Shown in pieces: positions 24,932-31,168 of a DNA stretch of 55,676 bases. Position 1 is the stretch's first letter; each line of letters opens with the position of its first letter. Under the pieces are notes generated by a model that was given only the letters and a program-made list of their open reading frames with translations, made no database searches and was not told where the DNA came from. The position numbers and the translations under genes are program-made. Source of the stretch: Actinomycetes bacterium (lineage in GTDB: Bacteria > Actinomycetota > Thermoleophilia > RBG-16-64-13); contig JAGXFV010000037.1 of assembly GCA_024637095.1 (NCBI GenBank), positions 1 through 55,676 on the forward strand, in the 5' to 3' direction.

Positions 24932-25110
24932 GCTCCGTCACCTCCACGGCATTCCGATGGCCGGACGCGAGGTCTCCAATGATCTGAGGGCCTTCGCCCT
25001 AGGGGACGGGCGGCGCGGTATGGATCGGGAGGGGGCGGCGCACTAGAATACCGACGAGCAAGAAGGCACCGATGGGCGGACCGCGAATCGCCCCACCAGG
25101 AAGGAAGCCA

Positions 25111-25386
25111 ATGCACACTCCCGCCGTCGTCTCGGTTCTCGGAGAGGACCGGGTTGGTATCGTGGCCGCTGTCGCGACCGCGCTGGCAGAAGCTCAGGCC
25201 AACATCGAAGACATCCGGCAGACCATCATCGGGGGGATCTTCTCCATGACCATGCTCGTGACGGTGCGCGAAGAGGCCGTCGCCTTCGACGAACTTCAGC
25301 GCCGGTTGGCCCGGACCGCCGAAGACATTGGCGTGCAGATCACACTCCAGCGCGAGGACGTCTTCCGCTACATGCATCGCATCTAG
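25111..25386 (+). CDS. ACT-domain protein (UPF0237 type)
   Basis: 91 residues consisting of one ACT domain: [35 protein letters not shown], a ligand-binding regulatory fold for amino acids or similar. AGGAAGGAAG precedes the ATG at 25111. It lies 53 bp before the DUF711 gene; the ACT-DUF711 pair is a conserved arrangement, and a second, mostly deleted copy lies at 3214-3408. The ligand is unknown. Confidence 0.93.
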
Positions 25387-25439
25387 GCACAGCTCCGCCC
25401 TCCCCCGTCCTCTCAAATCCGTCTCCAGGAGGTCCGCTC

Positions 25440-26804
25440 GTGTACATCTCGCCGGAAGAGATCGTCGAGACGCTCACGATGATCACGCAGCAGAACCTCG
25501 ACGTCCGCACGGTGACGCTCGGCCTTTCCCTCTCCGGCTGTACCCACCCCGACGTCGAGGTCATGGCGCAGCGGATCTACGAGCGCGTTACCTCCGCGGC
25601 CGAGAGACTCGTGCCCGTCGCCAAGCAGATCGAGCGGGAGTATGGCCTCCCCATCGTGAATGAGCGGATCGCCGTCACTCCCATCGCCCAACTGGCGGAT
25701 GCCACCACCGCCGAAGACCTCACCCCGCTCGCCGTTGCGCTCGACCGGGCCGCCCTCGAGGTGGGAGTCGACTTCCTCGGGGGGTTCTCGGCTCTCGTGC
25801 AGAAGGGGATCGGCGACGGCGACCGCCGCCTCATCGCCTCGATCCCCGCAGCTCTGGCGGCCACGGAGCGGGTATGCGCGTCGGTCAACGTCGCCTCCAC
25901 CCGCACCGGGATCAATATGGACGCTGTGCTGCAGATGGCCGCGGTTATCCGGGGCACCGCGCTGGCGACGGCAGACCAGAACAGCATCGGCTGCGCCAAG
26001 CTCGTGGTGTTCGCCAACATGGTGGAAGACAATCCCTTCATGGCCGGGGCCGTGCATGGCTCCGGCGAGCCCGATGCGGTCATCAACGTGGGGATTTCCG
26101 GGCCGGGAGTGGTGCGCGCTGTGGTCTCCTCCCTACCGGCCGACGCCGACCTGACCAGCGTGGCCGAGGCGATCAAAGCGACTGCCTTCAAGATAACCCG
26201 CGTGGGCGAACTGGTCGCCCGCGAGACGGCGCATCGGCTGGGCGTGGCCCGCGGCATCGTCGATCTATCGCTCGCGCCCACCCCGGCTGAGGGCGATTCG
26301 GTCGCCGAGATCATCGAGGCGATGGGCGTGGGCCGTTGCGGGGGGCCCGGCACCACCGCGGCGCTCGCGCTCCTCAACGACGCGGTCAAAAAGGGAGGCG
26401 CCATGGGCACCAGTTCGACCGGCGGCCTCTCCGGTGCCTTCATCCCGGTTTCCGAGGACGCCGGCATGATTCGCGCGGTGGAGTCGGGAGCGCTTTCGCT
26501 CGAGAAGCTCGAGGCTCTGACCAGCGTCTGCTCGGTGGGGCTCGACATGATCGCCATACCGGGAGACACCGCTACCGAGACCATCGCCGGCATCATCGCG
26601 GACGAGTGCGCCATCGGCGTGATCAACGCCAAGACCACGGCGGTGCGCCTGATTCCGGCGGTCGGGAAGAAGCTCGGCGATCGGGTGCACTTCGGCGGCC
26701 TGCTGGGAGAAGCGCCCGTGATGGCGGTCAACGAGTGGGCGGGCACCGTCTTCGCGCGGAGGGGCGGACGCTTCCCGGCGCCGCTGGGGAGTCTGCGCAA
26801 CTGA
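25440..26804 (+). CDS. DUF711/UPF0210 PFL-fold protein
   Basis: 454 residues, normal family length. Starts [16 protein letters not shown] at a GTG with CCAGGAGGTCC upstream. Contains the family blocks [47 protein letters not shown] and [17 protein letters not shown], and the C-terminal [14 protein letters not shown]. The fold is related to pyruvate formate-lyase/ribonucleotide reductase barrels but the glycyl radical site is not expected; biochemical role unknown. Operonic with the ACT-domain gene, which probably regulates it. Confidence 0.94.
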
Positions 26805-26984: not shown

Positions 26985-27206
26985 ATGGCGAAGGTTCCGG
27001 ACGAACAGCAATACATGGAGCGGTGCATCTGCGGCAACTGTCCGAGCTACCCGGGCGAGGGTGGCTTCTTCTGCGCGAAAGGGAAGAGCAGTCAGCCGAT
27101 CACGCGCCGAGGCTGCATCTGCGGAGACTGCGAGAACTTCAAAGAGTTCGACCTGAAAGACGGGTACTACTGCGCCGACGGCGCGGCCGGTGAAGGACCC
27201 CAGTAG
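26985..27206 (+). CDS. DUF2769-type cysteine-rich small protein
   Basis: 73 residues with two repeated cysteine modules: CICGNCPSYPGEGGFFC and CICGDCENFKEFDLKDGYYC. Each has C-x-C-x2-C plus one distal Cys, able to bind metal (Zn or Fe). DUF2769 is best known in methanogens and anaerobes; function unknown. A GAGGAGG site precedes the ATG, and a strong bidirectional-looking hairpin follows, separating it from the convergent selenoprotein operon. Confidence 0.85.
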   Translation: MAKVPDEQQYMERCICGNCPSYPGEGGFFCAKGKSSQPITRRGCICGDCENFKEFDLKDGYYCADGAAGEGPQ

Positions 27207-27235
27207 AGAGGCTGGAATACGTGCGCCCTTTGCCC

Positions 27236-27270
27236 TGCCGCACCGCCGCCTGAGGGGTGGCGGTGCGGCA
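27236..27270. terminator. Strong hairpin between convergent operons
   Basis: 12-bp perfect arms TGCCGCACCGCC (27236-27247) and GGCGGTGCGGCA (27259-27270) with an 11-nt loop, followed by TTTCT on the plus strand. It lies between the DUF2769 gene and the end of the convergent membrane selenoprotein gene and may terminate both. Confidence 0.8.
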
Positions 27271-27284
27271 TTTCTCATCTCCTG

Positions 27285-28445
27285 TCAGGCGGCTGCGAGC
27301 CTCTCCTCAATAACGCGATGCGCCTTCACGAATTTGCTCAAGATGAAGAGGTAGATGAGGATCGCCAAGTACACGCTGATGTAGTTGAGGGCCGAGATTC
27401 CGCTGTACTGGACGAAGAACCCGTAGACGTACACTCCCAAGACCTGGGAGCCGACAAAGGCTCACACGAATCCCCACTGAGATGGAGCAAAAGCCGTCTT
27501 GGAAAACTCCGTCTTCAGGTAGTCACGGACCACGTACACCGCCGCCACCCCCCAGCCAATGGCCAGGACGTAGGAGCCGGTTATCAGCAGCGACGTCGAC
27601 CCCGGCACGTTCAAGGAGACCTGAGGCTGCACGTACTCGGCCACGCGATAGGCACCCAGTCCCAGCAGGCAGGAGATGGGCACGACCAAGAAGAAGCCGG
27701 GCAGTATTGGGTTGGGGGGCAATTCTCGCGCCTTGATATGCGTGTAGAGTAGGAACCCCAGCTTGGCGACCAACATCAGGACTCCGATCGCCAGGGCAAA
27801 TATCGTCCCCGCGGCGGCGATACCGGCAACGACGTCGTTCTGGGCCATCGAGGTGATCCCGGAGCCGGTGAGCGTCACCAGGCCAAAGGCGAAGACGTCG
27901 AGCAGCCAGATGAAGTTGAACTGGGTGAGGTCGACGCCTTCCGAGAACCAGGTTCGGCCGACCGTGACTTCGAGGAAGACGAGAATGGCCAGAAGCAGGC
28001 CAAAGACGATCAGCGAAGGAAGCATGAACGCCTGCATGTGCGTGCTCATTTGCGGCACGAAGAAGCCGAAGGGAGCCCAGAAGACGTTCACCGTCATGGC
28101 GAGGGAAGCCACTATGGCGAAGATCCCCGCGTTCTGATTCTTGTGGGGATTGTTCACGAAGGCTCGGTAGGCTCCCGGCTCCCTGAGCCAACCCCACAGC
28201 CGACCGACGAAATATACCGTGAGCCCGAAGTTGATGAGTGTGAAGGCGAGCAATATGGCCACCAGGGGCAGGTAGAGGGCGCTCTCAGCGCCGGACAGGG
28301 TTCCCCAGGTGACATTGGACAGAGTGATGAGACCTTCGCCGTGGGGGATGGCGAACTGCAGGTAGTTGAAGGCCATGAGCGCGATGCCGCCCGCGGCCAG
28401 GGAGGACTGGAACAGCAACGGATGAAACGGGATCCGCAGTCTCAC
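27285..28445 (-). CDS. Polytopic membrane protein with in-frame TGA, probable selenoprotein
   Basis: Read through the TGA at 27462-27464 (codon 328), this is one 386-residue protein. It has a GTG start with AAGGAGGG located in the end of the upstream gene, and about nine or ten hydrophobic helices. The 58 codons after the TGA continue the same membrane-protein style (AFVGSQVLGVYVYGFFVQYSG, YLAILIYLFILSKFVKAHR) and end in TGA at 27285. Seventeen bases after the TGA starts the loop of a SECIS-like hairpin (27434-27450). Both observations favour Sec insertion over a nonsense mutation. The local motif is GFV-U-AF. The fold may be distantly related to SLAC1/TehA-type transporters, which is uncertain. 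Third gene of the operon, 2 bp after the ArsR-lipoyl gene. I recall automated annotation using a TsoY (seleno)protein family name for such proteins, which I could not check. Confidence 0.82.
27434..27450 (-). promoter_or_regulatory. Bacterial SECIS element in the membrane protein gene
   Basis: Minus-strand CTCCCA (27450-27445), loop GGTCT (27444-27440), TGGGAG (27439-27434): a perfect 6-bp stem capped by GGUCU, beginning 17 nt after the in-frame UGA. As I remember it, the E. coli fdhF SECIS also carries GGUCU at its tip, 18 nt after its UGA; the G and U there contact SelB. Confidence 0.85.
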
Positions 28446-28447
28446 CG

Positions 28448-29329
28448 TTAGCCCTCCTTGATCCCGCTGTAGACGGATTTGCAGGTGGGCGAGCTCTTGC
28501 CGGTCTTCGCCGCCTCCGCCGCTGCCGGAGTAGCGTGCTCCGTGCCCCCGAGTCGCCGAGCGTATGCCTCAGCGTCGAGTAGCTGGGCTTCCCACCCTTC
28601 TGTCGGCCGAATCTTGACCAGCCAGGTCTCCTGCGGATTTTCGTTGACCGCCGCCGCGGTGGCCTCGGGGTTGGCTTCCAGGGCCTGCCCGGCGAGGGGG
28701 CTGAGGAAGTACTTCATGTTCTTCTTGGTCGTGGCGAAGGCGATCTCCTGATCCACGACCAGCTCCTCGCCGGCCTCGGGAAAAACCTCGAGCTCGATGA
28801 GGCCGCCCATCAGGGCCACTCCCGGCTCGGACACTCCGACCACTACCGTGTCCCCGTCGGCGCCGGTCTCGCTCTTCACCCAGTACTGGCGTGCACCGTC
28901 GTAGAGCCGGTCTCCGGGCAAGTCGAAGTCCTTTCCCAGGAAGCCTTCGAGTTTTGCCATGATCTCCCCCTTGTCGTCTTTGGCCCACCTCGCGGCGAGC
29001 CCGTCTCCCGTTCTCAACTGCTCCTGGAGCACCTCGCGCAGAAGGTCGCAGGCCTGGACCATCTTCGGGTAGGCCACGCGGTAGTAGATCTCATTGCCGT
29101 CCCTGCGTGTGCGCACGAGGCCCAGGTGCCGCAATACGGCGAGGTGCTGGGAAACGAGTGGTTGCCTTGTTCCCACCATCTCCGCCAGGTCGTTCACCCT
29201 GCGTTCGCCGTCGCTCAGAACCTTCATCAGCTCTACGCGCAGGGGGTGGGCCAGGGTCTTGCACACCTCGGCGTGCATCTCGTAGAGTCTTGGGTCTATG
29301 CGCCTCTCTGCCGAATCGAACAGGGCCAT
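28448..29329 (-). CDS. ArsR-type repressor fused to a GcvH-like lipoyl domain
   Basis: 293 residues. Residues 18-105 are an ArsR winged helix (AHPLRVELMKVLSDGERRVN, RQPLVSQHLAVLRHLGLV, wing RRDGNEIYYRV) with Cys23 and Cys94, a possible dithiol/persulfide sensor pair. Residues 130-265 are a glycine-cleavage-H-like domain: YWVKSETGADGDTVVVGVSE, then TTKKNMKYFLSPLAG, where Lys203 aligns with the lipoylated lysine, and NENPQETWLVKIRP. The C-terminal tail holds Cys283. Lipoate carriers related to GcvH serve sulfur oxidation (LbpA of the sHdr pathway) as well as glycine cleavage. No glycine cleavage genes are nearby. It sits between two selenoprotein genes (19 bp and 2 bp gaps) and could sense the sulfur status through its own lipoyl group. 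Confidence 0.88.
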   Translation of the reverse strand: MALFDSAERRIDPRLYEMHAEVCKTLAHPLRVELMKVLSDGERRVNDLAEMVGTRQPLVSQHLAVLRHLGLVRTRRDGNEIYYRVAYPKMVQACDLLREVLQEQLRTGDGLAARWAKDDKGEIMAKLEGFLGKDFDLPGDRLYDGARQYWVKSETGADGDTVVVGVSEPGVALMGGLIELEVFPEAGEELVVDQEIAFATTKKNMKYFLSPLAGQALEANPEATAAAVNENPQETWLVKIRPTEGWEAQLLDAEAYARRLGGTEHATPAAAEAAKTGKSSPTCKSVYSGIKEG

Positions 29330-29348
29330 CAGCTCCTCAGACGTGTTG

Positions 29349-29702
29349 CTAGTAGATGAGTACCTTGTCCGCCTCCATCGTCCACTCGGCGAGTAGATCC
29401 AGGGAGCCGCGGACCGTGCCGTCGATCATGGGTAGGGACGCCAGGCCACGGGCGTCCATGCAACTGCCTCATAACCCGATATCGGCCTTCTTCGCCACGA
29501 GGCCCTTCAGCATGCGCTCCATGGAGTAGTAGCCTTCGGGCGGAGACTGGCCGGCCAGGGCGCAGGCGGTGGCGTCCGCCGTCAGGAAGACCTTCACCCT
29601 TGCGTCATCCTGCTTGGCCACGGCCAGCGCGTGGCGTAAAGCGTTGTATGAGCGCTCAGACCCGTACGGTGCGTCGTTGAGAACGAAGAGCACTGATGGC
29701 AT
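29349..29702 (-). CDS. DsrE-family protein with in-frame TGA, probable selenoprotein
   Basis: 117 residues when read through the TGA at 29469-29471 (codon 78). The N-terminal part VLFVLNDAPYGSERSYNALR, FLTADATACALAGQ, GYYSMERMLKGL is a DsrE/DsrF-like fold used for sulfur relay. After the TGA the frame continues GSCMDARGL ... SLDLLAEWTMEADKVLIY, which completes the family. Cys homologues, as I recall them, have C-G-T-C-MDARG here, so the TGA replaces the first Cys of a CxxC redox motif: U-G-S-C. A SECIS-like hairpin follows (29436-29457). First gene of the operon; the ATG is at 29702 with GGGGGGA upstream. Likely handles persulfide or selenium-bound sulfur. Confidence 0.9.
29436..29457 (-). 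promoter_or_regulatory. Bacterial SECIS element in the DsrE gene
   Basis: Minus-strand GGACGCC (29457-29451), loop CGTGGCCT (29450-29443), GGCGTCC (29442-29436): a perfect 7-bp stem, loop starting 18 nt after the in-frame UGA, with G near the start of the loop. Confidence 0.78.
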
Positions 29703-29742
29703 TGTGGTCCCCCCGGTAGGCCAGTGGTCGGACCAGCAGCAT

Positions 29743-29777
29743 ATCGCATTATCGCGATGTTGCAATCCCATTGTCAG
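29743..29777 (-). promoter_or_regulatory. Promoter with ArsR-like operator of the selenoprotein operon
   Basis: On the minus strand: -35 CTGACA (29777-29772), 18 bp, -10 GATAAT (29753-29748). The -10 overlaps the dyad ATCGC-n6-GCGAT (29743-29758), a plausible operator for the ArsR-lipoyl repressor encoded second in the operon. A weaker alternative is TTGCAA with TATGCT, 16 bp apart. Confidence 0.55.
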
Positions 29778-29821
29778 GCTTGGCGGAACGACCCCGGTCG
29801 ACCGCGTTCAATGGGGCTGCG

Positions 29822-31168
29822 TCAAGATCCGAACGCGAAGAGGGGCGGGAGGACGACGACTACGCCGGCGGCCCAGAGGGCGAAGACCGGGAGGTACCTC
29901 GTCTGCCAACGCGCCAGGCGATGGAAGGTGGCTCGCCCGGTGAGCAGCCGGAGAGAGAGCCAGGCAGCCGCGATCAGGTTCACCAGCAGTACCAGGTTGA
30001 GGCCGAGCGCGGCCACGCGGTTGGGGGTGAACCCGAGGTCGCCGACCCGGGCAAGCATCGAAGTGAGCACCATCATGTCGAGAACCAGGGCGGCGGCGAC
30101 CGCCACGAGCTGGACAACGTCCATGAAGCCGGCTCTCTGCGTCGACTCTCGTGCCGAAAGCCCGTAGAGAACGAGTCCGAGGACCACGATCAGCAAGACG
30201 TCGAAGACGGCGAGCTGTTCCCGGTCGAACTCACTACCGAGCCCGGATACCGCGTAGGTGAGGGCGGAGCCGGTCAACATCAGCGCGAACAGCGGGGTGA
30301 AGACCATGGTGAGCACGGGCGCCATGTTCTCGACAACGCTCTGCTTGGCTCCGACCAGCCAGGCGGCCACGATCACCGCGCCGGCAGCTCCCGAGGGAAT
30401 TACCCACTCGATGACGCTCTCGCCCAGGCCCGCCCGCACCGGTTCGAGGACGGCCAAGGTGAGCCCCATCAACACCCCTCCGCCGAGGGCGATGAGGACG
30501 TAGTAGATGAACCACTCCCCGCTGAAGCGCACGAAGTCCATGCGCCGCTCGTGAGAGCGCCACTCGCCGCCCACGTATGTGTAACCTACGGCGAACCACA
30601 GCGCCACGGGCAGGTGCAGCGCCGCGAGCATCTCGGTGGAAGATTCCGGGTCGAAGGGATAGAGGTTCATGACGAGGGCGCCCAGCACAAAGGGTGTGGC
30701 CGTCAGCAGGCTCTGCCGGAGGGGCAGCCCGCGTTGTTGGGCGAAGTACCAGGCGAGGAAAGGCAGCACAAAGAGGCTGACGTTGCGCATAAACCACGGC
30801 GAGGGATCACCCGACCAGCCGTCTCCTCTGAGCGCGATCTGGATCGTGACGGCTGCGGCGACGGCAAAGAGGAGTGCTTCGACCAGACCGTTCGAGGTGC
30901 GCCCCGACTCGGCCTTGGACGGCAACACGAGCTGTTTCCAGAGCCGGTCGCTGTGCTCCAGCGCGAACTCCCGGGACAGCCCGTCGATGTCGCCCATCCG
31001 CTTGACGGCGACCAGAAAGGCCTCGTCGGCGCTGAGACCGCCCGCTCCCAGGTCGGCCATCTGATCGCGCAGATGGGTTTCCAGCTCATCGATGTCAGGA
31101 TCAGCGACGGTCCGCGAACGGCCGACGTAGGCCCGCCATTCGGCGATCCGTGACTCGAGAACGTCCAT
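29822..31168 (-). CDS. Permease-prefix-domain membrane protein
   Basis: 448 residues. Residues 1-75 form a cytoplasmic permease prefix domain (IAEWRAYVGRSRTVADPDID, ELETHLRDQMADL, DEAFLVAVKRMGDIDGLSREFA), then about ten membrane helices of no recognised family. It lies 4 bp downstream of a PadR-type regulator, a frequent pair in which PadR controls the membrane gene. It may belong to an envelope-stress system. Confidence 0.85.
   Translation of the reverse strand: MDVLESRIAEWRAYVGRSRTVADPDIDELETHLRDQMADLGAGGLSADEAFLVAVKRMGDIDGLSREFALEHSDRLWKQLVLPSKAESGRTSNGLVEALLFAVAAAVTIQIALRGDGWSGDPSPWFMRNVSLFVLPFLAWYFAQQRGLPLRQSLLTATPFVLGALVMNLYPFDPESSTEMLAALHLPVALWFAVGYTYVGGEWRSHERRMDFVRFSGEWFIYYVLIALGGGVLMGLTLAVLEPVRAGLGESVIEWVIPSGAAGAVIVAAWLVGAKQSVVENMAPVLTMVFTPLFALMLTGSALTYAVSGLGSEFDREQLAVFDVLLIVVLGLVLYGLSARESTQRAGFMDVVQLVAVAAALVLDMMVLTSMLARVGDLGFTPNRVAALGLNLVLLVNLIAAAWLSLRLLTGRATFHRLARWQTRYLPVFALWAAGVVVVLPPLFAFGS

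Follow-up and report, generated by a model that had tools for sequence, protein, structure and literature searches.

What might a bacterium do with an operon that encodes two selenoproteins and, between them, a repressor fused to a putative lipoyl carrier? This question is raised by contig JAGXFV010000037.1 of an Actinomycetes bacterium (GCA_024637095.1), from which a stretch of 55,676 nt, hereafter the window, was analysed (all positions are those of the window). On its minus strand, a gene for a DsrE protein with selenocysteine (Sec) at residue 78 is followed, after 19 nt, by a gene for an ArsR-GcvH fusion and, after a further 2 nt, by a gene for the membrane protein TsoY with Sec at residue 328. 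Our assessment, held with slightly better than even confidence, is that the three genes form a self-repressed module for handling a chalcogen, with selenium the likeliest one (sulfur being the alternative), and that it includes a Sec-gated TsoY, the DsrE protein and a lipoyl relay. The parts of this proposal that were read directly are the operon, the Sec positions, the predicted fold, the replacement of a gate residue in alignments, a clade of SelD paralogues and the recurring partners. An earlier note on this DNA had postulated a self-regulated unit that moves sulfur or selenium and includes, besides two Sec proteins, a candidate lipoyl carrier, and the recurring partners and the Sec and lipoate genes described below support that view.

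Two selenoproteins in one operon

The earlier note had placed the three genes at 27285-29777 behind a single promoter. The positions, the gaps, the strand and both in-frame TGAs were all confirmed, and the sole promoter match in 27000-30000 sits before DsrE (0.4 expected in 3 kb). The features are as follows.

29748..29777, minus strand: promoter-like site CTGACA-18-GATAAT
29743..29758, strand-neutral: palindrome ATCGCGATAATGCGAT, overlapping the -10 box; candidate ArsR operator
29349..29702 (stop included), minus strand: dsrE/ychN-type gene, 117 aa, Sec78 in UGSC (PF02635, YchN 1jx7, TGA alignment)
29469..29471, minus strand: in-frame TGA, Sec codon of DsrE
29436..29457, minus strand: candidate hairpin 3' of the DsrE Sec codon (weak)
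28448..29329, minus strand: ArsR-GcvH fusion gene, 293 aa (NF033788, PF01597 and NF045810 scores)
28721..28723, minus strand: codon of Lys203, the lipoyl-lysine position by alignment with the ESVK lysine of GcvH
27285..28445 (stop TGA 27285-27287), minus strand: tsoY, membrane protein with predicted SLAC1 fold, 386 aa, Sec328 (NF047643, AlphaFold2 model, Z scores)
27462..27464, minus strand: in-frame TGA, Sec codon of TsoY, at the apparent position of the TehA gate residue Phe262
27433..27451, minus strand: bSECIS-like hairpin 3' of the TsoY Sec codon

The reading of both TGAs as Sec codons draws on comparison with homologues. At the TsoY column, 36 of the 37 readable homologues carry TGA and one carries TGC, and directly 3' of this codon lies a 7-pair hairpin in which 98.5% of pair cells are kept (29 TGA sequences) and whose stem is degraded in the lone TGC (Cys) homologue. 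Under synonymous-codon reshuffling, the median p for this hairpin was 0.08 at the site versus 0.50 at control places. At the DsrE column, 12 other homologues have either TGA (six) or Cys (six) and no other residue, and Sec78 aligns with a Cys of Escherichia coli YchN (PDB 1jx7). The DsrE hairpin taken alone was no better than shuffled or synonymous-codon controls (not significant), and Rfam at its gathering threshold gave no match in the window. A sister species (L009/L025) has an equivalent operon, again with both TGAs. The DsrE protein itself exceeds the PF02635 cut-off (73.3 bits, cut-off 22.7) and aligns with YchN over its whole length (100 bits), and it falls below that of TusD (TIGR03012, 23 bits, cut-off 89.25).

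A genome without Sec machinery or lipoate attachment had been named beforehand as what would speak against a Sec- and lipoate-dependent unit. The host genome was, however, found to encode SelD, SelB, tRNA-Sec and LipB (the last via PF21948). A PF03099 match was not counted as a lipoate enzyme; it is probably a biotin ligase, because a BioY-like ORF (by eye) comes next.

TsoY and the place of its selenocysteine

The membrane protein is a clear member of TsoY, with 516.8 bits against NF047643 (cut-off 250) and the motif UxxV present as UAFV. The selenoprotein family TsoY was named in 2025 (Haft and Tolstoy), and it appears with this motif in the list of a 2026 review, as do Sec DsrE-like proteins (PMC13188914). 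Since one of its members thus belongs to a family named in 2025, the system is not undescribed, contrary to what the earlier note had suggested. None of the three operon proteins matches TsoA, TsoB or TsoC of the Tso three-selenoprotein operon (the rest of the genome was not searched), and the score against TsoR (NF045707), 46.2 bits, is below the cut-off of 115.

The AlphaFold2 model of TsoY comprises ten helices (pLDDT 87.7, pTM 0.89) and superposes on SLAC1/TehA structures with Z scores of 26-32 over about 300 residues, the best unrelated chain reaching 17. In addition, the protein scores just over the cut-off of PF03595 (SLAC1/TehA; 29.7 bits, cut-off 27.9), and a search of PDB sequences with the TsoY profile gave no match even at E 10. 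As modelled, TsoY has the SLAC1/TehA fold. It had been cast as an exporter, an importer or a reductant channel, a choice that is narrowed by this fold, with Sec at the gate position, to a probable anion channel for either uptake or export.

Sec328 lies on the ninth long helix of the model. A direct profile comparison with TehA alone gave no usable result, and nine SLAC1/TehA proteins were therefore used in a profile alignment. In this full-length alignment, as in two of three MAFFT modes, Sec328 falls on TehA Phe262, in a column that holds Phe in all nine SLAC1/TehA proteins compared and Sec in TsoY. In TehA, Phe262 is the gating residue on transmembrane helix (TM) 9, and the odd-numbered TMs line the pore (PMC11050165). 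Sec328 appears, from these alignments, to replace the pore-gate phenylalanine of SLAC1/TehA. Cys259, which is invariant in 35 TsoYs and located on predicted TM7 (the seventh helix), might pair with Sec328.

Partners of TsoY across genomes

When GTDB genomes were scanned with an alignment of TsoY, 38 loci turned up, which fall into about 30 lineages (grouped manually by record title); their hosts include Bacillota, Desulfobacterota relatives, Anaeromyxobacter, Actinomycetota, Coriobacteriia and Fusobacteria; no TsoY relatives were found in viral contigs. Within 9 kb of TsoY, DsrE occurs in 21 of the 30 lineages (including a few weak matches, e.g., L052 and L055), ArsR in 17, a NifS/IscS-like cysteine desulfurase in 16, selD in 12, LysR in 11 and CGGC proteins in six, and 28 lineages have at least one recurring family. 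By our estimate, any two genes of a 3-4 Mb genome would be found 9 kb or less apart about 0.5% of the time. The expectation that the families co-occur elsewhere and are linked to sel genes has thus been borne out, as TsoY, DsrE and ArsR recur together across phyla and selD accompanies TsoY in the lineages counted above. For example, a Candidatus Solincola row comprises ArsR-rhodanese, DsrE (Cys), TsoY (Sec) and a cysteine desulfurase. ArsR is fused to rhodanese in seven TsoY loci, so that, together with ArsR-GcvH, a chalcogen-carrier domain has been joined to ArsR in two unrelated ways.

The operon might instead reflect a promoter shared for redox housekeeping, with no joint pathway, and the SelD, NifS and selenate reductase (srd) neighbours a general clustering of selenium genes; G040, a genome in which TsoY stands without partners, fits this explanation. 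The recurrence of at least one family in 28 of 30 lineages argues against it, as does the core selD-DsrE-TsoY-DsrE cluster, which is present twice in Mesobacillus selenatarsenatis. In addition, selA and selB are close to TsoY in just one of the 38 loci, so that the TsoY cluster is not simply a Sec-decoding cassette. Taken together, we consider housekeeping an improbable explanation.

A link to lipoate genes, which had also been anticipated, was found in Thermincola (L046), where the order is SelD, DsrE (Sec), GcvH, LipS1, LipS2, LplA-like, dihydrolipoyl dehydrogenase (Lpd), a further enzyme gene (citrate-synthase-like by eye) and TsoY. As judged from its gene content, this cluster lends independent support, from another phylum, to the idea that DsrE and TsoY act together with a lipoyl carrier.

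In the window, the operon is convergent with a gene for a small Cys-rich protein with two CICGxC stretches (26986-27206, plus strand), and an ACT-domain protein followed by a DUF711 protein is encoded at 25072-26804 on the plus strand.

Selenium or sulfur

The 18 SelDs linked to TsoY all group in a single clade (support 100/100), from which 16 other SelDs are separate. In six of six genomes checked, the TsoY-linked SelD is an additional copy, each genome having at least one further SelD (by position and score). M. selenatarsenatis, for instance, has three SelDs, two of them in its two TsoY clusters (L038 and L039). Contig BASE01000031 carries the L039 cluster and, no more than a few kb downstream, genes for Fe-S, NrfD-like and molybdopterin subunits in B-C-A order. 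The selenate reductase operon srdBCA of this strain has been reported on contig BSSF00031 (PMC4319585), and the genes downstream at L039 are apparently this operon, judging from contig, order and family. The one LysR tested from TsoY loci had the selenium-metabolism LysR as its best match, just under the cut-off (222 bits, cut-off 250). Trichococcus (L044) has the only Cys form of TsoY found, and its genome has a selD and no selB above cut-off, which suggests that this host has retained the use of selenium but not Sec. Because of the dedicated SelD paralogue, the selenium-type LysR and the apparent srdBCA neighbour, the evidence leans to selenium, which we regard as an appreciably likelier substrate than sulfur.

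Yeast Ssu1, which we take to belong to the TDT/SLAC1 family and hence to the superfamily of TsoY, is relevant here. It exports selenite, in competition with sulfite (PMC10269739), a precedent for the passage of a selenium anion by this superfamily. Ssu1 was, on the other hand, first known as a sulfite pump (PMC10269739), and a sulfur unit, handling persulfide or sulfite, can be envisaged, with sulfane sulfur passed along by DsrE and the lipoyl arm in the manner of sHdr/LbpA or Dsr systems, TsoY as the exporter of sulfite or sulfide, and Sec serving just as a faster Cys. DsrE, rhodanese and NifS/IscS-like proteins do carry sulfur, the names of many TsoY hosts mark them as sulfate reducers, and ArsR-type sulfane-sulfur repressors exist (PMC12423496). 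A sulfur unit would, however, leave aside the dedicated SelD clade and selenium-type LysR that travel with TsoY, the apparent srdBCA operon beside a TsoY cluster, and the Trichococcus host of Cys-TsoY with its selD and no selB above cut-off. We regard it as possible and rather doubtful.

The ArsR-GcvH fusion and its candidate operator

The ArsR half of the fusion scores above the cut-off of NF033788 (ArsR/SmtB; 84.5 bits, cut-off 55) and below that of NF040642 (BigR/SqrR persulfide sensors; 64.7 bits, cut-off 155). The GcvH half matches PF01597 with 41.6 bits and is a close relative of NF045810 (GcvH-related), below its cut-off (93.6 bits, cut-off 150), and it stays well under that of TIGR00527 (glycine cleavage GcvH; 35.5 bits, cut-off 115.85); the host genome has a separate, stronger GcvH match. 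With Lys203 at the lipoyl position, this half is a candidate lipoyl carrier. Its C-terminal motif SPTCKSVY (SPTCxSVY) recurs in GcvH-related proteins that stand alone in members of this bacterial family. As a probe for co-occurrence, NF045810 is too broad: at E 0.001 it had matches in 272 of 299 genomes, with no score above the cut-off.

Further GcvH-related genes were also seen. One encodes a GcvH-related domain fused to an arsenite-methyltransferase-like domain, with the lysine kept (L068, G000:C24 near 37600), and another a protein with a residue other than Lys at the lipoyl position (L070, G000:C3 near 18000). L079-L082 are stand-alone genes; an SPTCRSVYGG tail was read in L081 and L082, and a putative zinc-binding protein adjoins those of L079 and L080.

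The presence of an ArsR half could also point to arsenic or metalloid resistance, in which ArsR would sense As(III), TsoY would export a metalloid anion, and DsrE and GcvH would be accessory. Two TsoY hosts have arsenate-reducer names, and the genome encodes a GcvH-ArsM-like fusion. In the loci read, however, no arsenite pump or arsenate reductase was noticed beside TsoY (no model search for these was made), and the Cys residues of the ArsR half lie at the end of the first helix and in the last helix, not in ELCVCDL, the classical ArsR motif. Such a role therefore seems highly improbable.

The palindrome over the -10 box is the sole perfect match to its pattern in the window, and three matches were found there with at most one mismatch allowed, which is not rare (1.45 expected). 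In the sister species, the palindrome stretch is conserved, while the DNA before it has diverged. Its overlap with the -10 box and its conservation fit autoregulation of the operon by the ArsR half, with the palindrome as the candidate operator, in support of the earlier proposal of self-regulation through ArsR.

Proposed mechanism

We postulate that TsoY is an anion channel that passes a selenium or sulfur anion, e.g., HSeO3-, HSe- or HSO3-, and that Sec328, at the constriction, either reacts with the chalcogen on its way through or shuts the pore depending on redox state. The YchN-type DsrE, with Sec at the acceptor position, would, as its family suggests, receive the chalcogen in perselenide or persulfide form. 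If its Lys203 is lipoylated, the GcvH-like arm would then offer a dithiol that accepts or reductively releases the chalcogen, a role suggested by the swapped parts in relatives, where rhodanese or cysteine desulfurase may fill it. The product would go to SelD, for which Bacillota relatives have the dedicated paralogue in the cluster. The ArsR half would repress its own operon via the palindrome, and perhaps fusion to the carrier lets the repressor read the carrier's load. A bolder form of this proposal, which we consider less likely than not and advance tentatively, is that the Sec gate in the SLAC1 pore of TsoY is chemically reactive, so that selenium or sulfur anions are recognised through covalent bonds; with its own SelD, TsoY would constitute in Bacillota a dedicated route from environmental selenium to selenophosphate, and in the present operon it would work with a load-reporting fusion of lipoyl carrier and repressor.

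Several observations weigh against a chalcogen module with a Sec-gated channel. The matching of Sec328 to the gate Phe depends on aligning proteins that are about 10-15% identical, and the third MAFFT mode left TehA and TsoY unaligned. The SelD linkage is seen in Bacillota only, the Actinomycetota and Desulfobacterota loci being without it, and in the sister-family genomes G040 and G070 neither DsrE nor the fusion adjoins TsoY (G070 is cut by a contig edge). Other GcvH-related proteins of the lineage are found away from TsoY, next to a putative zinc-binding protein or together with an arsenite-methyltransferase-like domain, and the Thermincola GcvH is canonical rather than of the fused type, in a cluster whose Lpd and LipS genes would also suit other lipoyl enzymes. 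The DsrE, rhodanese, NifS and lipoyl-carrier families are, moreover, associated chiefly with sulfur, and we know of no assay of a TsoY.

How selenium is delivered to SelD in bacteria is still unclear, and YedE and other candidates have been proposed from their gene neighbourhoods (PMC5322559). TsoY, a family without known function, here gains a fold and a likely exact position for Sec, namely the channel gate; it is also tied to a SelD paralogue of its own and to what is apparently a selenate reductase operon. On this footing, direct flux and mutant tests can be designed. If true, the proposal would make TsoY a selenocysteine-gated channel; to our knowledge, no other is known.

Comparison with known systems

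Each of the families is already known by name, and parts of the neighbourhood may already be described with the naming of TsoY; in the literature searched, which is incomplete, we found no earlier report of the present ArsR-GcvH fusion, of Sec at a SLAC1 gate or of a TsoY-linked SelD clade. The operon protein is a clear member of the TsoY family (NF047643), which the sources read list by name. With the SLAC1/TehA/TDT channels (PF03595) it shares the ten-helix fold, and it differs from them in having Sec for the gate Phe and an invariant Cys259, at about 10-15% identity. The operon DsrE is of one family with E. coli YchN, with which it aligns at full length, and the Sec DsrE-like proteins; unlike in YchN, the first Cys of CxxC is Sec, and TsoY is the operon partner. 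The GcvH half resembles NF045810 proteins and LbpA of sHdr in its GcvH-like domain with the lipoyl Lys kept, and differs in scoring below the NF045810 cut-off and in being joined to ArsR; no sHdr genes were seen in or beside the operon (the genome was not searched for them). YedE, YedF and LysR_Se are selenium-associated genes found near selD (PMC5322559), as TsoY is in 12 of 30 lineages, and the LysR tested from TsoY loci resembles the selenium-metabolism type. YedF has a DsrE-like CGxC domain. In contrast to YedE, however, TsoY has a predicted SLAC1 fold, and the SelD linked to it is a separate paralogue.

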